Program-made: the position numbers and the translations under genes | Source of the DNA: an uncultured Verrucomicrobiota bacterium | Lineage (GTDB): Bacteria; Verrucomicrobiota; Verrucomicrobiia; Limisphaerales; CAIQOK01 | Direction: 5' to 3' | NCBI GenBank assembly: GCA_903873415.1 | Contig: CAIQOK010000062.1 | Span: 1 to 49,030 of the forward strand | DNA: 49,030 nt | Notes under the pieces: generated by a model | What the model was told of the DNA's origin: nothing | What the model saw: the letters and a program-made list of their open reading frames with translations, nothing else | The model's database searches: none | In this document: in pieces, positions 13,437 through 23,291 of the stretch | How the letters are laid out: every line of letters starts with the position of its first letter | Position numbering within the stretch: the stretch's first letter is position 1

Positions 13437-13977
13437 GCAGCAAAATATGATTCCGGATTGATACGTTGAATTGTAGGGGGGAAACCTTGGGTATGGCGAG
13501 TGGAGAATTGATTTCCAGGGGATGAATCCCGGGGGGTAATCGATGATCCTGCCACAGTTGGTTGAAGCGTGAAGGGCCGGCATGCGGCAGATGAAGGGGA
13601 TCCGCCGAGGCGGCCGTTTGGATTTTTATTTTTCGCATTTCCCCGGAGCGGATGTCGGAGCGTTGGGGCGCCGGACAAACCCTGAAAACGGGGTGTTCTC
13701 TTCCCTGGTTTTTTGCCTGGGCTGCTCCAAATCCGCTCCGGTTTTAGGGGTGGGTCAGTGCGGTTTTTTGGGCGACGGCAGGGGCGCCACTTTTAGGGTT
13801 GGATGAGGGGTGATCCGTAAAACCACGGGGATTTTTTTAAGTAATACTAGGAGCTATCGCCGGGCCTGGGGTTGGATAAGATAAAAGTCGTTGGAGTGAC
13901 GGGGTTGAAGGATTTCGTCCCCAAACAACAGTGCGGCTCGCGTGCGATTTAAAAAAGCAAATGGAAGACAAGAAAAT
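13437..13977. other. Long divergent intergenic region
   Basis: About 540 bases between the minus-strand heme dehydrogenase and the plus-strand FKBP gene. No gene is supported. It should hold both promoters; the recognisable piece is the repeated element at 13815-13856. A GGAAGA Shine-Dalgarno-like sequence sits at 13963-13968, nine bases before ATG 13978, and decides the FKBP start. Confidence 0.6.
13815..13856 (+). promoter_or_regulatory. Repeated intergenic element, copy 1 (before FKBP gene)
   Basis: CCGTAAAA at 13815-13822, 22 spacer bases, then TACTAGGAGCTA at 13845-13856. The same two blocks with a 21-base spacer occur at 17159-17199 before cusB. The last 17 bases (AGTAATACTAGGAGCTA) match the other copy at 16 of 17 positions. 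The two-block form suggests a promoter of an alternative sigma factor, or an operator. It ends 121 bases before the ATG. Confidence 0.5.
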
Positions 13978-14697
13978 ATGATGACAAACAAAGCAAAATC
14001 AGGGGTGGGACGGGGTTCGACGCTGGCAGTGGTGCTTGCGGTATTTGCCGGTCTGGCTCAGGCCGGTCAGCCCGACGGGCATCATGTTTCCAAGGAGCGG
14101 GCCAGCTATGCTCTGGGGGTGGATTTGGCGCGCAATTTCAAGCGGCAGCAAATGGAGGTGGATATGGAGGAGTTCGACAAAGGGTTTAAGGACGGGTTGT
14201 CGGGTGAGAAACTCAATGTCTCGGAGGTGGAGTTGCGCGATTGCATCAATACTTTTCAGGTGGAAGCCCGGCAAAAGCAGGCGCTCTTCCGCGGGAAACC
14301 CGCGCCCGACATCAACAAGAAAAAGACCGAGCTTTTTTTGGCCGCGAACAAGGAGAATCCAGGTGTGACCAGCTTGGCCAGCGGGTTGCAATACCGGGTG
14401 GTTGTCGCGGGAACGGGCGCCAAACCGGCGGCGGCGGATCTCGTGCAGTGCGCCTATCGCATTGCGCTGGTGGACGGCACCGAGATCCTTGCCACCGCGG
14501 CCGGGAAACCCGCGTCCTTCAAGGTTGGCGAGGCGGACCTGCGGGCTTGGCGCGAGATTTTGCCGCTGATGCAGGTGGGATCCAAGTGGCGGGTTTTTGT
14601 GCCGGCGCAGTTTGCCTACGGGTTGCCGGGTGTTCCCGGGAAGGTCGGGCCGAATGAGATGGTTGTCTCGGATCTGGAACTGGTCGCAATCAAGTGA
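13978..14697 (+). CDS. FKBP-type peptidyl-prolyl isomerase-like protein, degenerate
   Basis: A 239-aa exported protein built like Mip/FkpA: a signal peptide (to about residue 30, FAGLAQAG), an N-terminal dimerisation-type domain (SYALGVDLARNF...F.KGFKDGLSG), a helix, and a C-terminal FKBP fold (about 130-239) with GSKWRVFVPAQFAYG and a final DLELVAIK strand. The active-site loop is altered: where active FKBPs have YTG.L.DG..FDSS, this has YRIALVDGTEILATA, so the Phe-Asp pair is missing. The Trp of the hydrophobic pocket may survive in RAWREIL. It is probably a chaperone or binding protein and not a good isomerase. ATG 13978 has a Shine-Dalgarno-like GGAAGA. Confidence 0.85.
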   Translation: MMTNKAKSGVGRGSTLAVVLAVFAGLAQAGQPDGHHVSKERASYALGVDLARNFKRQQMEVDMEEFDKGFKDGLSGEKLNVSEVELRDCINTFQVEARQKQALFRGKPAPDINKKKTELFLAANKENPGVTSLASGLQYRVVVAGTGAKPAAADLVQCAYRIALVDGTEILATAAGKPASFKVGEADLRAWREILPLMQVGSKWRVFVPAQFAYGLPGVPGKVGPNEMVVSDLELVAIK

Positions 14698-14707
14698 TGT
14701 TAGGAAC

Positions 14708-14726
14708 GGAGCTTTTTTAAAGCTCC
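14708..14726 (+). terminator. Hairpin after the FKBP gene
   Basis: Perfect inverted repeat GGAGCTTT-TTT-AAAGCTCC, 10 bases after the stop codon. The stem is partly A/T and the trailing T content is low, so it may be a weak terminator. Confidence 0.55.
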
Positions 14727-14751
14727 TATCCATTTTCCGGTTCATCCTCCC

Positions 14752-16359
14752 ATGTCAAATCAACTCGCGGCGTATTTCTGGACGCAAACCCTGACCGGCA
14801 GGGTGCGGGCGTTCGCCTTGGCCGACGCCGGCCCGCTGCGGGTGTCGCGGCGGGGCGGGGGCTTTCGAGGGCGAGTGAGCCTTCTGGCTCTGGTCTGGCT
14901 TGCGTTGGTTTCAGGGTGGGGCTTGGGCAATCAGGTCCGGGCTGCGGTGTTTGACTTTGACACAGGCACGCCATTGCTCGCAGTAAACCAGGGGTTGCCG
15001 CTGGATCAGACAGCCAGTGGTGTGACTGCCCACTACAGTGCGTCCAGCGGCGGTTTTGCGGTGGAAACCTCCTATTCCATTCTTTATCCGGTTTCAAGTT
15101 TTACCAACCAGTTCCTTTATCCAGCCGGGTCTCTGGGTTCCGCGCTCGAAATCCGGTTTAGTGAGATGATGACGAATATCAGTTTTCCTTTTGCAACCCT
15201 TCAGATCATTGAGACGACCGATCTGGAAACCCCGATTCGATTGGATGCCTACACGAACTCGACGGCATCCCAGCCGGTCGGGGGCGTGAGTGCCACCGGG
15301 GTCTATGGCGGGGGGCCTAATCCGACGGATCCCTGGCCGCAAGGGATTCTTAATTTCACCTCGGCGGTTCCATTCAATCTGGTGAGGATCAGCGTGCCGA
15401 ATGTGGTGCCCCTGCCGACTACGGGGCAGGCCTATGATTTTCTGGTGGATAATATCACGGTGCAGCGGGCCGGCGGGGCTTCGTGCCTGATCACGGCGAC
15501 GTCGTCGCCGGCGGGTTATGGGAGTGTTGCCGGGACCGGGGGATATTCGGTGGGTTTGACGGCAAGTCTGATGGCCAGGCCCTTGCTCGGGTATGTGTTC
15601 ACCAACTTTACGGAGAACGGGACGGTGGTCAGTGCGTCTAATCCCTATGAGTTCATCGCCAAAACCAACCGCAATCTCAGCGCGAATTTTACCGCGGCTA
15701 ACTTCACAGTGAAGGCCGCAGCCGTCCCCTTTGCCGGTGGAAGCACCACTTTGACTAACACCGGGTCCTACGCGGCGGGAACTATTCTGACCGGGGTGGC
15801 CTCAGCCAAAGCCGGCTACGGGTTTGTCAATTGGTCGCGCGGCGTCAATTCGGCCACCGCGACGAATATTGTCTCCACCTCGTCCAGCTACACCTTCGTG
15901 GTCAATTCGAACTTCACCGTTCTGGCGAATTTTCAGCCTGGAAATACGGTGACCCTGAGTGCTTGGCCGGCCGATGGAGGAGCGGTGTCGGGCGGCGGCA
16001 TTTACCCGGCCAGTTCCAACCTTACGGTGTCTGCCACCGCAAGCCCGGGTTATGCCTTTATTAACTGGCAGCAGGGCGGTGCGGTGGTAAGCAGCTCCTC
16101 GAATTATACGCGTGCAGCCACTTCCAATCTGACTCTGGTGGCCAATTTTGATCCTGTCCTCCATATCGCCCGGGCACCCCCCGGGGCGGCTCGGATTTAT
16201 TGGCCCTATCCTGCAGCGGGATTTCAGCTTCTCCAAAATTCCAGCATCAGCGGCACCAATTGGGTCCAGATCACCAACGTGATCGCTGTAGGAGGCCTTA
16301 ATCAGGTGAATTGTATGACGACTGGAAGATGTGGTTTTTATCGACTTTTTCATCCCTGA
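14752..16359 (+). CDS. Secreted protein with InlB/Flg_new_2-like repeats
   Basis: A 535-aa protein. The hydrophobic signal segment (LLALVWLALVSGWGLG) begins only near residue 45, so the true start may be GTG 14842 (residue 31), which would give an ordinary signal peptide. The N-terminal part (about 65-240) looks like a jelly-roll ligand-binding domain. Three tandem repeats of about 75 residues follow (about 240-470), each with G-Y-x-F-x-N-W/F and ending L.ANF, as in divergent InlB B-repeats. The tail (LLQNSSISGTNWVQITN ... GFYRL) is the same type as in the RCC1 protein and the sedolisin. A cell-surface or secreted role is likely; there are no enzyme motifs. Confidence 0.8.
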   Translation: MSNQLAAYFWTQTLTGRVRAFALADAGPLRVSRRGGGFRGRVSLLALVWLALVSGWGLGNQVRAAVFDFDTGTPLLAVNQGLPLDQTASGVTAHYSASSGGFAVETSYSILYPVSSFTNQFLYPAGSLGSALEIRFSEMMTNISFPFATLQIIETTDLETPIRLDAYTNSTASQPVGGVSATGVYGGGPNPTDPWPQGILNFTSAVPFNLVRISVPNVVPLPTTGQAYDFLVDNITVQRAGGASCLITATSSPAGYGSVAGTGGYSVGLTASLMARPLLGYVFTNFTENGTVVSASNPYEFIAKTNRNLSANFTAANFTVKAAAVPFAGGSTTLTNTGSYAAGTILTGVASAKAGYGFVNWSRGVNSATATNIVSTSSSYTFVVNSNFTVLANFQPGNTVTLSAWPADGGAVSGGGIYPASSNLTVSATASPGYAFINWQQGGAVVSSSSNYTRAATSNLTLVANFDPVLHIARAPPGAARIYWPYPAAGFQLLQNSSISGTNWVQITNVIAVGGLNQVNCMTTGRCGFYRLFHP

Positions 16360-16389
16360 TTGCTTGTTTGTTTTATCTACAATCATTTT

Positions 16390-17022
16390 ATGAATGCCTC
16401 TTCCACCCAATCCGCACAATCCAGCCGCTTTAGCCCCGGGTTCGTTTTCTTCCTCATCGCCGCCTCGGCCGTAACGCTCATCCTGGTCTGGGTCGGGGTG
16501 ACCCGTTTGCAAAAGCACCCCAACGCCCCTGAGGCCGCCGCACCGGTCGAGCCGGCGGCGCAAACCCAGGCTGCGTCCGTGCCGGTGATGCCGGCTGCGG
16601 CACCGCAGATTGTGTATCCGCCCTCCGTGCTTTCGCAGCGGGGGGGGATTCAGGTTGAGCGTATTGCGCTGACGATGGCCGGTGCTGTGATAGATCTGCG
16701 TTATAAGATTGTGGATAAAGACAAGGTGGGTGAGTTGGTGCAGAGCACACCAGCGGCCTATCTGGTAGATCAGGCCAGCGGGACGCAGCTGACCGTGGGT
16801 GGGCCCCCGATGCAAGGCCTGAAAAACAATCGGAAATCCATGGCGATGAGCCTGAAGATGACCGGGCAGCTCGACGGCTTTCCCCCGGCCTCCGAAAAGA
16901 AGCGGGTTAACGGCCAATCCTACTCTGTCCTATCCCCCAACCAGCGGGGGATCCTCAAGCCGGGCAGCAAAGTCACTTTGGTTGTCGGGGATCTCATGGC
17001 TGGCGATCTGGTTGTGGAATAA
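16390..17022 (+). CDS. Membrane-anchored protein of unknown function
   Basis: A 210-aa protein with one N-terminal transmembrane segment (FVFFLIAASAVTLILVWVG, about residues 19-37), a Pro/Ala-rich linker (about 45-80) and a C-terminal soluble domain (about 85-210) predicted outside the membrane. The domain contains MAGAVIDLRYKIVDKDK, PAAYLVDQASG and a final KPGSKVTLVVGDL. This resembles a family of unnamed bacterial proteins seen near metal-efflux or respiratory genes, but I cannot give it a reliable name. ATG 16390 is chosen over an upstream in-frame TTG. It sits 30 bases after the InlB-repeat gene and ahead of the cus genes. Confidence 0.7.
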   Translation: MNASSTQSAQSSRFSPGFVFFLIAASAVTLILVWVGVTRLQKHPNAPEAAAPVEPAAQTQAASVPVMPAAAPQIVYPPSVLSQRGGIQVERIALTMAGAVIDLRYKIVDKDKVGELVQSTPAAYLVDQASGTQLTVGGPPMQGLKNNRKSMAMSLKMTGQLDGFPPASEKKRVNGQSYSVLSPNQRGILKPGSKVTLVVGDLMAGDLVVE

Positions 17023-17158
17023 GGTCGTTTTGATCCTGCGTAGGCGGGGTGAAAAGTGGTTTTCCCGAGCCCCTGTCTTTTCCTTGCTGGAGCGCGAATG
17101 CTTTCCAGAAAATTGGCGTGACTAGCGGAGTTGACCTGATAAGGTTTTGGTTTGGCCT

Positions 17159-17199
17159 CCGTAAAAATACTGAGAGCGGTTCAGTATTACTAGGAGCTA
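17159..17199 (+). promoter_or_regulatory. Repeated intergenic element, copy 2, with dyad (before cusB)
   Basis: CCGTAAAA at 17159-17166, a 21-base spacer, then TACTAGGAGCTA at 17188-17199, as at 13815-13856. In this copy the spacer contains a perfect 8-base dyad, AATACTGA (17166-17173) and TCAGTATT (17181-17188), separated by seven bases. Such a dyad could be an operator for a metal-responsive repressor or activator. It ends 139 bases before the cusB ATG. The rest of the 316-base gap (17023-17338) holds no gene I can support. Confidence 0.5.
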
Positions 17200-17338
17200 C
17201 CACAAATGGTTATTCAAGATAACTTTCTCCGTGTCTGGATCCGGCTGCGCGCTGGTTTTCATCCTTCGGCGGCAAGTACGAAGGCTAAAGCCATCGGCTC
17301 AGGATACCGGATTAAATTGCTAAAAATTTAAACGCCTC

Positions 17339-19993
17339 ATGCCTACCCATAAAAGTTCAAGCTCAATCCGGATCGCCCTTTGCCTGCTGGCTCTTTCGGG
17401 GGCCTGGCTGGATTCGGCCCGTTGCCATGGAGCGGGCACCCCTGAACGCAAGGTCGCCTTCTATCAGGACTCCATGCATCCGTGGGTCAAATCGGATCAG
17501 CCCTCCAAATGCTCCATTTGCGCGATGGACCTGACCCCGGTTTATGCGGGCGATCAAGTCGCGGTTGCGGGGGAGGGCCTCGTGGTCTTGAAACCCGACA
17601 GTGTCACGGTCTTGAACGTGCAAACGGCCGATGTGAAGCGGCGGGTATTGAAACGCACCCTGAGGGTGGCCGGAACCCTTGAGGCCAACGAGGAGCAAAA
17701 AACAATTGTTTCCTCCCCGATTGCCGGGCGGGTGCAGAATCTGTCCGTCAATTCGGTCGGAATGAAGGTGGACAAGGGACAAATGCTGGTGACTTTGTTT
17801 AGTCCGCAACTGGTCCAGCGCCGGGCATTTCTCCGCTCCGTCGGGGGCGAACAGTCGACCTTGTCCAAGGACCTGGTCCCGACGTCGGCGGGCAGCGACC
17901 CGTATCTGGGAGAGCTTCTGGCCCCGCAGGGCGGGGTCGTGCTGGAACGGTTTGCTTACAAGGGGCAATACGTTATGGAAGGGGAAAAGCTTTTCACCAT
18001 TGCGGAGCCTTCGGCAATGTGGTTCCGGTTTGATGTTTATGAGACACAGGTGCCTTGGTTGGAGCAGGGGCAGAAACTCTCCGTCCGCACGGCGTCGGTT
18101 CCCGGCAAGACTTTTCCCGCGGTGATCTCGTTCATTGAGCCGGCTCTCAACGAATCCACCCGGACCATCAAAGTGCGGGCTGACATTGAGAATCCGATGG
18201 TGGAGGTCAACGGGCATTCCCGGCGGTTGCTGCGTTTTGGGGAATACGCCGAGGCCACGCTGCGCAGCGAGATTCCCGGCCTGCTGGTTGTGCCGCGCGC
18301 TGCGGTTTTGTTTCCCGACGATCAAGCCTATGTCTATGTGGATAAGGGGGCCGGCGCTTACCAGAGGGTTCGCGTCGAGTTGGGCCGTCAGGGGGATGAT
18401 TCCTGGGAGGTTCTGGGCGGGGTGTCGGAGGGAGAGCGGGTGGTAATCTCAGGCAATGTGCTTCTGGACGCCCAGTCTCAGTTTGCCTCAGGACATGCTC
18501 GGGGCCGGTTGGAGGGCGGGGCTGGCGGCTCTGAAGACGGGGAAAAAGAAGGTATGTCGGAGCGCGAGAGAATGCCCTCAGGTCCGGCGCTGGAAAATCC
18601 CATCCAAACCGTTCCCATCGTGCGATTGGACACTGCCGCGAAGAGGGCCTTGACGGATTTTTTGGCCCTTGCAGATGGCCTTAGCCAAGTGTTGGCGGAC
18701 GACAGTCTTGAACAGTTTGTTCAGCGCGGACGGGCCTTGCCGGGAGTGGTTTCCAATCTCAATCAGCGTTTGGGACCGGCTCATCCATGGCACCCGCTGC
18801 TGATGCGGCTTGAAGGGGTGTCGCATTGGGCGGTTCCGGCGGATCTGGCTGCGGCCCGGAAATCCTTTCTGCCGTTCAGCAGCGAGGTGGTCGCTTTGGT
18901 TAAAGTTGTCCACCGCCAGGAAAAGTCTCTGGCGGGTCTCAAGATTTTCCATTGCCCTATGGCACCCCAGCCGGGGCTGTGGTTTCAGGCCAAGGGCCCG
19001 CTGCGCAATCCCTTTTTCGGTGAAAAAATGCTGGCCTGCGGGGAGGATGTGGCATTTGAAGAATCCATCCCGAATGAGGTTGCACCCAAGGAAATGGCTG
19101 AGAATGTCATGCCACCTGTAAACGGAGGGATGTCTGCCCCAGCGGTTTCCCCACCAGCCGGCCAAGGTCGGACACATCATCGCACCCCTGCCGTTGCGCG
19201 GACTCAGGTGCCACCGCCCGAGATGCAGGGTGGGGGAGCGGGTATGGGGGGGATGGCAGAGGTTGCGCCAGAAGCGGTGGCGGGGTCTGAAAAAATGCCG
19301 GCTCTGCCGCTCAAAGCCATTGAGACTTCCAATCGTCCGCCTGTTGCCGCAACCAAGCGGGTTTTCAGAGATGGCAGAACCTCCATCATGGGCGCCATCA
19401 TGTCACCCGGCTCGGAACTTCAGTCCATGCGTCGGGCCTCCATCCTCGCCGGTTTGGCGCAGGATGCCAAGGCGGGCGCTACCAATCAGGCGGCGGCTCC
19501 AATGACGGCGGTGAAACGGTTGAAGAGCGGGGTTTCACTCACCCGGCTCCAGGAGCAGAGCCTCAAGGGTTTGGTGGAGGTGACTGAGGGGCTGACCCGG
19601 GTGTTGGCGGAGGACAACATGGGCGGTTTCTTCAAACTCGCCAGCGTGCTGCCCACCCAGTTCACTCTGATCCGCGATGGTTTTGAAACCAATCATCCTT
19701 GGAGTGGTATGATCCAGGAGATTCTGCGCACCGGGGTGCCGGTGGCCCGCATGGGCGACTGGCCGTCGACCCGGACACTGGAAGGGGCGCGGGGGTTGTT
19801 TCAGGAGTTTAGCGGTTCGATGTCCAATCTGGCCAAAGAGTTGAGGAAAAACGACCCGGACTTTGCCGGGTTAAAAATCTATCAATACTCATTGGATTCC
19901 AGCACGAACCGGTGGATACAGGCGGCCGGTCCGCTGCGAAATCCCTTCACCGGCGTCAGGCTGGCGGCCAGCGGGGCGGAGGTTTTGGACTGA
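17339..19993 (+). CDS. cusB: CusB-like RND efflux adaptor with two DUF3347 domains
   Basis: Periplasmic adaptor (membrane fusion protein) of a Cu(I)/Ag(I) efflux pump, 884 aa, about twice the usual length. Order: signal peptide (to about 32); heavy-metal-binding domain (about 40-70, SMHPWVKSDQPSKCSICAMDL); adaptor core with barrel-sandwich and beta-barrel domains (about 80-385); DUF3347 copy 1 (about 430-575) with the metal-site-like HCPMAP; a Met/Pro-rich linker (about 580-720); DUF3347 copy 2 (about 735-884), where HCPMAP is replaced by YQYSLD. The first Cys of the usual CPMHP motif is also Ser here. The cusA gene follows after 52 bases; no TolC/CusC-type outer membrane gene is present. Confidence 0.9.
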   Translation: MPTHKSSSSIRIALCLLALSGAWLDSARCHGAGTPERKVAFYQDSMHPWVKSDQPSKCSICAMDLTPVYAGDQVAVAGEGLVVLKPDSVTVLNVQTADVKRRVLKRTLRVAGTLEANEEQKTIVSSPIAGRVQNLSVNSVGMKVDKGQMLVTLFSPQLVQRRAFLRSVGGEQSTLSKDLVPTSAGSDPYLGELLAPQGGVVLERFAYKGQYVMEGEKLFTIAEPSAMWFRFDVYETQVPWLEQGQKLSVRTASVPGKTFPAVISFIEPALNESTRTIKVRADIENPMVEVNGHSRRLLRFGEYAEATLRSEIPGLLVVPRAAVLFPDDQAYVYVDKGAGAYQRVRVELGRQGDDSWEVLGGVSEGERVVISGNVLLDAQSQFASGHARGRLEGGAGGSEDGEKEGMSERERMPSGPALENPIQTVPIVRLDTAAKRALTDFLALADGLSQVLADDSLEQFVQRGRALPGVVSNLNQRLGPAHPWHPLLMRLEGVSHWAVPADLAAARKSFLPFSSEVVALVKVVHRQEKSLAGLKIFHCPMAPQPGLWFQAKGPLRNPFFGEKMLACGEDVAFEESIPNEVAPKEMAENVMPPVNGGMSAPAVSPPAGQGRTHHRTPAVARTQVPPPEMQGGGAGMGGMAEVAPEAVAGSEKMPALPLKAIETSNRPPVAATKRVFRDGRTSIMGAIMSPGSELQSMRRASILAGLAQDAKAGATNQAAAPMTAVKRLKSGVSLTRLQEQSLKGLVEVTEGLTRVLAEDNMGGFFKLASVLPTQFTLIRDGFETNHPWSGMIQEILRTGVPVARMGDWPSTRTLEGARGLFQEFSGSMSNLAKELRKNDPDFAGLKIYQYSLDSSTNRWIQAAGPLRNPFTGVRLAASGAEVLD

Positions 19994-20045: not shown

Positions 20046-23000
20046 ATGATCAACCGCCTTATCGAATGGTCGTTGCGGAACCGCTTTTTGGTGGTTTGCG
20101 CGACCCTCTTTCTCATCGCTTGGGGAGTTCATTCCCTGGCCCATACCCCTGTGGATGCCATTCCCGATCTGAGCGAAAATCAGGTCGTCGTTTTTGCCGA
20201 CTGGCCGGGCCGCAGCCCTCAGGAAGTGGAAGATCAGTTGACCTACCCGCTCTCGGTCAATCTGCAGGGCTTGGCCGGAGTTAAAGATGTCCGCGCCCAA
20301 TCCATGTTTGGCTTCTCCTTCATCACCGTTGTTTTTGAGGAGAAGGTGGATAATTATTTCGCCCGGACCCGGATTTTGGAGCGGCTGAATTATTTGGGGG
20401 ACCTATTGCCGGCGGGGGTGATTCCCAAGCTGGGGCCCGATGCCACCGGTCTGGGGTGGGTCTATCAATATTATTTGGCGGTCGATCCGCAAAAGGCCCC
20501 GCAGGGCGGTTATGACCTATCGCAGTTGCGTTCGCTGCAGGATTGGTTCATCCGTTACCAGCTTAATTCCGTGGCGGGAGTGGCCGAGGTGGCCAGCATT
20601 GGCGGCTTTGTCCGGCAGTATCAAATCGAGCTGTCAACGGCCCGGATGCGCAACCTGCAGATCTCGCTGCAGGACGTGCTGGAGGCCGTGCAACAAAGCA
20701 ATCTCAATGTGGGTGGCAAGGCGGTGGAGGAAAACGGCATGGAATTCGTCCTGCGCGGACTGGGGTTGATCCATTCCCTCAAAGATCTGGAGAACATCGT
20801 TCTCAAGGAACGCGGGGGTACGCCGGTTTATCTGCGCGACGTGGCCGGGGTGCAAATGGGCGGTGATTTTCGGCGCGGCGCCCTGGACGTCAACGGTCAG
20901 GAGGTCGTGGGCGGGAATGTGGTGATGCGCAACGGCCAGAACAGTCTCGAAGTCATCCGGCTGGTGAAGGAAAAAATCGCCCGCATCTCTGCCAGCCTCC
21001 CGCCGGGGGTGACCATCAAGCCCTTCTATGACCGGAGCACGCTCATCGACCGCTGTCTTGCGACTCTGAAAAAGTCCCTGGTCGAGGAGATCCTTCTTGT
21101 CTTGCTGGCCCACATTGTCTTTTTGTGGCATTTTCGCAGCATCCTCATTGTCACTCTGCCCCTTCCCGCCTCGATTCTGATCTCCTTCATTCTAATGGAA
21201 AAGTGGGGGATCACCTCGAATATCATGTCCCTGAGCGGCATTGCCATTGCGATTGGTGTGCTGGTCGATGCCGGCATCGTGATGACCGAGAACGTGATTC
21301 GGCATTGCGAACGGTTGGAGAGTCGCAAGGGGGGGCAAACGCGCTTGACGCCGGACGAGCGATGGCAAGTGACGCTTGTGGCGGCGCAGCAGGTGGGCCG
21401 GCCGATTTTCTTTGCCATGCTGATCATCATCCTGGCTTTCGTCCCGGTGTTCACCCTGTCGGGGCAGGAGGGGAAACTCTTTCATCCGCTTGCCTTTGCC
21501 AAAACCTTCGCCATGGTCGGCGCCACTCTGCTGGCCGTCACCATCGTCCCGGTGCTCTGCACTTTTCTGGTGCGCGGCCCCTTTCAAAGAGAAGAGGACA
21601 ACTGGATCATGAGCCGGCTGCTGCGGGTTTATGATCCGGCGTTGAACTGGGCCTTGACTCATCGGGGCCGGGTTCTGAGTGCTGCGCTGGCGTTGATCGT
21701 GGCGGCCTGCGTGTTGGCTCTTGGCTTGCCGCGTCCGCTCCTCCATGCCCTGGAAAAATGTCGGCTTCCGGGTCTGGCCAAGGCCGCCGCCGGCATGGGG
21801 AGCGAGTTCATGCCCACCCTCAACGAGGGTAGCCTGCTATTCATGCCCGTGCTGCTGCCCAGCACCTCGCTCACCGAAATCAAACGGCTCATCGCCTGGC
21901 AGGATAAAGTCATGAAACAGGTGCCCGAAGTGATCTCCGCCGCCGGCAAGTTGGGTCGCGCCGAAACAGCCACCGATCCGGCTCCGGTGGAGATGATTGA
22001 GACCACCCTTGAACTCAAACCCCAGTCCGAGTGGCGCCCGGGCCTGACTCAGGACAAACTCATCGCCGAGCTGATTGAAAAACTCAGCCAGATGCCTGGT
22101 TATGTCCCCGGTTTCCTGCATCCTATCGAGGGGCGCATTCTAATGCTCAGCACCGGGATACGCGCCCAGGTGGGGGCCGTGCTGCTTGGGGACAATCTTG
22201 ATGCTTTGCAGGCCAAAGCCTTTGAAGTGGAGAAGATCCTGCGGGACGTTCCCGGAGCGGCCGGGGTGGCAACATCTTTGCCGCAGGGTAAACCCTATCT
22301 CAATATCGAAGTGGACCGAGTGGCCATGGCCCGCTACGGGCTGAGGGCCAGGGATGTTCTGGACGTGGTTGAAACGGGGCTAGGCGGCCGCAACTTGGGC
22401 ACCACCATTGAGGGACGCGAACGATTTCCCATTCAGGTTCGTTTTCAGCAGGCTGAGCGGGACAATCTGGAGGCGTTGGGCGATGCCCTGGTTTTCTCTC
22501 CCTCGGGGAAAGTGATCCCGCTCGGCCAGGTGGCCAAGCTCAAACGCACGGTCGGTCCGAGCGAAATTGACAGTCAAAACGGCCGGTTGCGCGTCTTTGT
22601 TCAATCCAATGTTCAGGGGCGGGATCTGGGTGGTTTTGCGGCGGAAGCCCGCGCCCGCATGGACAGGGAACTTCATCTGCCTGCGGGAATGACTTTGGAA
22701 TGGAGCGGTCAGTATGAGAACCAGCTGCATGCCCAACGCACCCTGCGGCTCATCGTTCCCGCCGTGTTCCTTATTATCTTCCTGCTGCTCTATGTGGTGT
22801 ATCATTCGGCCAAGGAGGCGGCGCATGTCATTCTGGCGGTCCCCTTCGCCTTGAGCGGGGGAGTGTTTCTCCAGTTCCTTCTGGGTTATCCCTTCAGCGT
22901 TGCGGTCTGGGTCGGCTACATCGCCCTCTTTGGCACCGCAATCACCACAGCCATCGTCATGGTGGTCTACTTGGAGGAATCCGTCACACGCAAACGACTG

Positions 23001-23291
23001 GAGCGTGGCGACGCCTTCGACCGGGCGGACCTGATTCAGGCGGTGAAAGATGGCGCGCGGCTCCGGTTGCGGCCCAAGGTGATGACAGTCACCACCACCG
23101 TGGCGGCCCTCTTTCCAATCATGTGGAGCACAAGCACCGGTTCGGAAGTCATGCGCCCGCTGGCCGCACCTGTGATCGGGGGAATGGTGAGCAGTTTCCT
23201 CCATATCCTCATCGTGACGCCCGTGGTCTTCATCTGGTTGCGGGAACGTGAGCTTCCCAAGTCTGCCGGGTCGGCAAAATCCCAGTCCTGA
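20046..23291 (+). CDS. cusA: CusA-type copper/silver RND efflux pump
   Basis: Inner-membrane proton-driven RND transporter of 1081 aa, expected to expel Cu(I)/Ag(I) through the adaptor encoded just upstream. The three methionines that bind Cu(I) in E. coli CusA (573, 623, 672) are matched by Met600 (LFMPVLLP), Met650 (VEMIETT) and Met700 (LMLSTGI) with the same spacing, which separates it from Co/Zn/Cd pumps. The proton-relay aspartate lies in the transmembrane segment GVLVDAGIVMTEN. Two large periplasmic loops and the paired six-helix bundles are evident from the hydrophobic pattern. ATG 20046 gives the typical amphipathic start MINRLIEWSLRNR. Confidence 0.95.
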   Translation: MINRLIEWSLRNRFLVVCATLFLIAWGVHSLAHTPVDAIPDLSENQVVVFADWPGRSPQEVEDQLTYPLSVNLQGLAGVKDVRAQSMFGFSFITVVFEEKVDNYFARTRILERLNYLGDLLPAGVIPKLGPDATGLGWVYQYYLAVDPQKAPQGGYDLSQLRSLQDWFIRYQLNSVAGVAEVASIGGFVRQYQIELSTARMRNLQISLQDVLEAVQQSNLNVGGKAVEENGMEFVLRGLGLIHSLKDLENIVLKERGGTPVYLRDVAGVQMGGDFRRGALDVNGQEVVGGNVVMRNGQNSLEVIRLVKEKIARISASLPPGVTIKPFYDRSTLIDRCLATLKKSLVEEILLVLLAHIVFLWHFRSILIVTLPLPASILISFILMEKWGITSNIMSLSGIAIAIGVLVDAGIVMTENVIRHCERLESRKGGQTRLTPDERWQVTLVAAQQVGRPIFFAMLIIILAFVPVFTLSGQEGKLFHPLAFAKTFAMVGATLLAVTIVPVLCTFLVRGPFQREEDNWIMSRLLRVYDPALNWALTHRGRVLSAALALIVAACVLALGLPRPLLHALEKCRLPGLAKAAAGMGSEFMPTLNEGSLLFMPVLLPSTSLTEIKRLIAWQDKVMKQVPEVISAAGKLGRAETATDPAPVEMIETTLELKPQSEWRPGLTQDKLIAELIEKLSQMPGYVPGFLHPIEGRILMLSTGIRAQVGAVLLGDNLDALQAKAFEVEKILRDVPGAAGVATSLPQGKPYLNIEVDRVAMARYGLRARDVLDVVETGLGGRNLGTTIEGRERFPIQVRFQQAERDNLEALGDALVFSPSGKVIPLGQVAKLKRTVGPSEIDSQNGRLRVFVQSNVQGRDLGGFAAEARARMDRELHLPAGMTLEWSGQYENQLHAQRTLRLIVPAVFLIIFLLLYVVYHSAKEAAHVILAVPFALSGGVFLQFLLGYPFSVAVWVGYIALFGTAITTAIVMVVYLEESVTRKRLERGDAFDRADLIQAVKDGARLRLRPKVMTVTTTVAALFPIMWSTSTGSEVMRPLAAPVIGGMVSSFLHILIVTPVVFIWLRERELPKSAGSAKSQS

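Follow-up and report, generated by a model that had tools for sequence, protein, structure and literature searches.

A repeated two-block element upstream of copper and envelope genes of a Limisphaerales bacterium belongs to a five-site family and probably marks a small promoter-associated regulon

Results

Genes and element copies in the window

The stretch of DNA that was analysed (the window, 49,030 nucleotides) carries two copies of a two-block element, c1 and c2, in the intergenic regions before an FKBP gene and a cusB-like gene. The features of this part of the window are as follows.

13814 to 13824, forward strand: upstream repeat of c1, TCCGTAAAACC, which contains CCGTAAAA
13838 to 13848, forward strand: second repeat of c1, TAAGTAATACT, offset 24 nt
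13845 to 13856, forward strand: block TACTAGGAGCTA of c1, the 3' half of the conserved core
13877 to 13882, forward strand: -10-like hexamer TAAGAT of c1, 36 nt past the second GTA core
13978 to 14697, forward strand: exported FKBP-type peptidyl-prolyl isomerase (FKBP_N and FKBP_C), target of c1
14752 to 16359, forward strand: 535-aa ORF with divergent InlB B-repeats
16390 to 17022, forward strand: 210-aa ORF, no Pfam family
17158 to 17168, forward strand: upstream repeat of c2, TCCGTAAAAAT
17181 to 17191, forward strand: second repeat of c2, TCAGTATTACT, offset 23 nt
17188 to 17199, forward strand: block TACTAGGAGCTA of c2
17220 to 17225, forward strand: -10-like hexamer TAACTT of c2, 36 nt past the second GTA core
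17339 to 19993, forward strand: CusB-like periplasmic adaptor (heavy-metal-binding HMBD and HlyD_D23), target of c2
20046 to 23291, forward strand: CusA/CzcA-family heavy-metal RND pump (TIGR00914, above cutoff)

The 535-aa ORF is possibly the second gene of the FKBP unit. In other families (L008, L009, L011, L017), the sequence immediately before the cusB homologue resembles the C-terminus of the 210-aa protein (VGD...), which suggests that this protein is a conserved partner of the CusB/CusA efflux system. With 884 aa, the CusB-like adaptor is longer than usual, and its C-terminal half seemingly holds two copies of a domain that ends in motifs such as LKIFHCPMAP...WFQAKGPLRNPFFG and LKIYQYSLDS...WIQAAGPLRNPFTG; the repeated domain matched no Pfam family at E 0.001. 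None of the window ORFs scanned encodes a regulator.

The original prediction had placed the two blocks as CCGTAAAA-N22-TACTAGGAGCTA at 13815-13856 and as CCGTAAAA-N21-TACTAGGAGCTA at 17159-17199, and both copies were found there on the forward strand. The extension of the second block to 17 bp, AGTA(A/T)TACTAGGAGCTA, with one mismatch between the copies, was also confirmed, as were the gaps of 121 nt to the ATG at 13978 and of 139 nt to the ATG at 17339. The window contains 178 maximal exact repeats of at least 12 bp, and three of them have a second 8-mer upstream at a matching offset. By itself the block pair is suggestive and moderately surprising in 49 kb; the shuffle expectation of 0.00 for the pair is conditional on a motif picked beforehand.

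Five related sites in the genome

The two copies are part of a larger control element of about 70 bases with five members in the 3.8-Mb genome. With up to one mismatch, TACTAGGAGCTA occurs at two places in the 3.8 Mb, both in the window, as against 21 for the reversed control. The third site, c3, was first found in an order-wide search with the 17-mer at two mismatches; it belongs to the same genome and lies just upstream of a large ORF (contig C143, 12142-12158, reverse strand). Nearly all the extra matches of that search fell inside open reading frames and were set aside. When the variable positions were freed, AGTANTACTNGNAGCTA gave exactly three matches in the genome at up to two mismatches, all of them perfect (reversed control, 26). 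The flanks of c3, which played no part in its discovery, resemble those of c1 and c2 both downstream (p ~0.001 over 45 nt) and upstream (p ~0.004 over 20 nt).

A profile built from c1 to c3 (R1) retrieved two further sites from the same genome at E ~0.1 each, c4 on contig C10 (CCTCCATAAAACTACCGAGGCGGATTACGTAGAAGTGGCATCTATC) and c5 on contig C77 (CCTCCGTAACACTACGGATAGCGGTTTCCGTATTAATACTGG), which on inspection carry the same blocks. Profiles rebuilt from all five (R2, R3) returned these five sites and nothing more of note in this genome; a weak match on contig C3 was judged to be chance. In leave-one-out scoring each of the five sites outscores the whole of a 16-Mb third-order Markov background. 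The element is almost certainly real, it is very probably a promoter-associated regulatory site, and the promoter-associated regulon is well supported.

Genes downstream of the sites

For the five sites, four downstream genes were identified: those for the FKBP, CusB, a multicopper oxidase and a LytTR-domain protein. The target of c3 (C143, 6385-12063) encodes a 1893-aa exported-looking multicopper oxidase, with matches to Cu-oxidase_2 (Pfam) and to CotA laccase (PDB, 5e-28). CotA-like parts occur in this protein together with fibronectin type III repeats, and a peroxiredoxin gene is located upstream of the oxidase gene on the same strand. The target of c4 encodes a 265-aa protein with a C-terminal LytTR domain (PF04397, 2.9e-14), so that a LytTR regulator is present both in the genome and within the regulon; besides this one, at least two other LytTR-like matches were found in the genome. 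On contig C10 (4852-8228) the c4 LytTR gene is transcribed away from a stand-alone REC gene and a HisKA-REC-SpoIIE gene, with which it possibly forms a split signalling system. The ORF downstream of it is a DUF1501 gene on the opposite strand. No gene was seen at c5, which lies 333 nt from the end of contig C77.

Anatomy of the element

From 5' to 3' the element consists of TCCGTAAAACTACGGAG, a variable stretch and TT(C)(C/A)GTAnTACTnGnAGCTAT. Its two halves are an imperfect 11-bp direct repeat, TCMGTAAWACT, at an offset of 24 nt in c1 and c5 and of 23 nt in c2 and c4, with 12-13 bp between the copies; in c3 the upstream copy is weak. The sequence GGmAGCTAT is conserved after the second repeat. 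A terminator-like hairpin, with a run of seven T behind it, overlaps the upstream repeat of c1 (13814-13838); the T-run is absent at the other sites.

A hexamer TAnnnT is found at exactly +36 from the second GTA in c1 (TAAGAT), c2 (TAACTT), c3 (TAGAGT) and c4 (TAAGGT). No other TAnnnT occurs in the 75 nt after the core of c1 to c3, and c5 has none. The model behind the discovery of c4 already covered the -10 region, so only c1 to c3 are independent for this hexamer. The expectation of a TAnnnT at one common offset in three out of three sites is ~2e-6 from the local base frequency, or ~2e-4 by an estimated adjustment in which promoter DNA is taken as AT-rich. Neither of the two intergenic regions of the window contains a conventional sigma-70 promoter with a recognisable -35. 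If the hexamer at +36 is the -10, the second repeat ends 4-5 bp before the -35 position (18/17-bp spacer). The TAnnnT at a fixed distance and the lack of a recognisable -35 therefore give the element the layout of an activator site that stops 4-5 bp short of the -35.

From the second GTA to the start codon the distance is 140 nt (c1, counted to the ATG at 13981, the second of two adjacent ATGs), 155 nt (c2), 97 nt (c3) and 168 nt (c4), and all four assignable sites are in the sense orientation to the next gene. Copies lying mainly in non-promoter positions, which by the original prediction would speak against a promoter, are not seen: four of the four assignable copies lie 97-168 nt before a start codon.

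Relatives and wider searches

In profile searches of the genus mate (the only other genome of the genus searched) and of another 56 genomes from the order, no site was convincing, under stricter filters with which weak matches can drop out. The weak matches in relatives were taken as chance, those checked for context being in coding or unrelated sequence. Upstream of cusB homologues in other families, the motif is absent in 600 nt. The exact pattern had a single match in 84,980 species genomes, inside a Bizionia coding sequence, and the only one-mismatch match of the 42-nt pattern elsewhere lies in a hicB-like gene (hicB read by eye); both are considered chance matches in coding sequence.

The genus mate has no homologue of the c4 LytTR protein either. 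The joint lack of sites and homologue is weakly consistent with the regulator and its sites travelling together. In a distant genus the homologues of the c4 protein are REC-LytTR response regulators, which align with it over the last two thirds at 33% identity; for this reason the c4 protein looks like a REC-LytTR version minus the receiver. No equivalent repeat was found in the regions upstream of these distant homologues. Judging by gene content alone (DUF1501, PSD1/PSCyt2, DUF7133), the host itself is probably verrucomicrobial or from a related PVC group.

Other explanations considered for the window copies

A shared RNA structure was rejected: c1 is not stable, and the hairpin of c2 (z -1.6) is missing in c1. 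An Rfam scan of the window gave a tRNA only. The idea of a cassette between direct repeats, with excision of 13857-17199, was also rejected, because a sequence like the 210-aa protein stays next to cusB in some related genomes.

Discussion

The element is a new instance of an ordinary kind, the operator/promoter of a small regulon, and is more than a two-copy coincidence. An accidental likeness of two intergenic regions is extremely improbable. The pairing of a 12-mer with an 8-mer is not rare in a 49-kb window (three such cases among the 178 exact repeats), and a near-match exists even inside the hicB-like gene of another family, but the leave-one-out scores refute this explanation and the genome-wide profile results also go against it. 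It is very unlikely that the sites derive from a decaying REP- or MITE-like dispersed repeat and are intergenic by happenstance. In favour of such a repeat, the five sequences are related over 45-70 bp, c2 and c5 could form hairpins, c1 overlaps a terminator-like hairpin and T-run, and c5 has no identified gene. Against it, all four assignable copies are sense to a gene whose start codon follows within 97-168 nt; conservation is patchy, with blocks at fixed offsets, rather than uniform; the copies number only five and lie near functionally related genes; and the two window copies show nothing remarkable in their RNA folding.

A site for a different transcription factor, for example a metal sensor, or a dimer that binds the palindromic parts GTA-N4-TAC and AGTA-N-TACT, with the LytTR gene just a target, is an unlikely though not negligible reading. 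A partial inverted repeat can be seen in each block (CCGTAAAAC(T)ACGG and AGTA-N-TACT), the two centres being about two helical turns apart, and the copper-linked targets would suit a metal sensor; however, the palindromes differ in inner spacing (4 against 1), they are not kept in c3 and c4, and the scanned window ORFs offer no regulator. The regulons of CueR, CusR/CopR, CsoR and CopY also control CusBA-type pumps and multicopper oxidases. To our knowledge the element matches no classical copper box of these four kinds, nor do the RcnR-, CueR- or BlaI-type operators known to us fit it, and no CueR, CusR/CopR, CsoR or CopY-type regulator was seen among the window ORFs scanned.

An ECF promoter had been the original prediction, and much of what it implied stands: the element exists, occupies a promoter position, has the same orientation as the next gene and is common to copper and envelope genes. 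Applied to the present sites, it would mean that a CorE-like sigma factor for copper or envelope stress recognises a -35 TAAAAC and, after a spacer of 15-16 nt, a -10 (C/A)GTA. ECF promoters combine an AAC-type -35 with a CGT-type -10 at a distance of 15-17 nt. The pattern (T/G)(A/G)A(A/C/G)A(C/A)-N15/16-(C/A)GTA accommodates all five sites. ECF -35 boxes typically have an AAC core (PMC3107203); this core is absent in c2 and c3. In Myxococcus xanthus the copper-dependent ECF factor CorE controls a multicopper oxidase and efflux pumps, and its regulon resembles the present one in comprising few copper genes with similar upstream sequence (PMC3107203). The sigma-factor part of the prediction did not fare as well. 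In contrast to an ECF promoter, the conservation is not confined to two boxes and runs past the would-be -10, through GGmAGCTAT and the fixed-distance TAnnnT, to a sigma-70-like -10. ECF factors are often autoregulated, yet none of the four identified targets encodes a sigma factor, and unlike in the CorE regulon no ECF gene is linked to the identified sites. One of the targets is a LytTR DNA-binding regulator, which points instead to a site where an activator binds ahead of a sigma-70-type -10. We consider an activator with a sigma-70-type -10 the likely arrangement, rather than ECF control, to which we give a low probability.

Paired direct repeats immediately before the -35 are the binding sites of LytTR regulators, which mostly act as activators (PMC11347149). 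In LytTR regulatory systems, which can be autoregulatory, the repeats lie 4-11 bp ahead of the -35 (PMC6193735), and AgrA acts at promoters with suboptimal spacing (PMC4227749). The present element resembles autoregulated LytTR promoters (AgrA P2/P3, HdrR/BrsR, RcoM/CoxC) in its paired direct repeats, which would end a few bp upstream of the -35, in a -35 that is weak or absent, and in that the LytTR gene carries the site itself (PMC6193735, PMC11347149, PMC4227749). Its consensus TCMGTAA resembles known LytTR half-sites and is not identical to them. The geometry also differs in part: published LytTR repeats are about 9-11 bp long and separated by 10-13 bp, whereas the imperfect 11-bp copies here, 12-13 bp apart, have an offset of 23-24 nt, larger than the reported ~19-22 nt, and the upstream copy of c3 is poor. 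Unlike those of the LytTR promoters just named, the targets here are copper and envelope genes; the c4 protein is without a receiver domain; and its gene has no recognisable neighbour for a membrane inhibitor, in contrast to LytTR regulatory systems. In the literature searched, no relevant system of LytTR control of copper efflux and a multicopper oxidase was found.

The sites themselves are shown, with their uniqueness, spacing, position and neighbouring genes; that they have promoter activity, work through an activator, are read by the LytTR protein and respond to copper is what we infer. In the proposed mechanism the two blocks would be the upstream half and the core of an activator-dependent promoter. 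A dimeric regulator would bind the TCMGTAAWACT direct repeat at its offset of 23-24 nt, and its contact with RNA polymerase would replace the missing -35, allowing transcription from a sigma-70-type -10, TA(A/G)nnT, at a fixed distance. The regulon would include the exported FKBP, the CusBA efflux pump, the CotA-type multicopper oxidase and the LytTR-domain protein; the latter would control its own gene, a feedback that may amplify a copper or envelope signal. The c4 LytTR protein is the best regulator candidate because its own gene carries the element, and the chances that it is the factor that reads the element are about even. Copper may equally well be the signal or not. The whole model, a LytTR-type activator on a direct repeat driving a sigma-70-type -10 in a tiny regulon, is likewise evenly balanced. 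More tentative, and somewhat on the doubtful side, is the proposal that a receiver-less LytTR regulator, apparently derived from a REC-LytTR protein, uses a direct repeat with a 23-24-nt offset to control a copper/envelope regulon together with its own gene.

The element most likely marks a small circuit that regulates itself and deals with copper or envelope stress. Regulation in this bacterial group appears little explored, and a five-site regulon with a candidate regulator provides a concrete handle on the control of copper efflux in it. If the model is true, LytTR control would extend to metal homeostasis.
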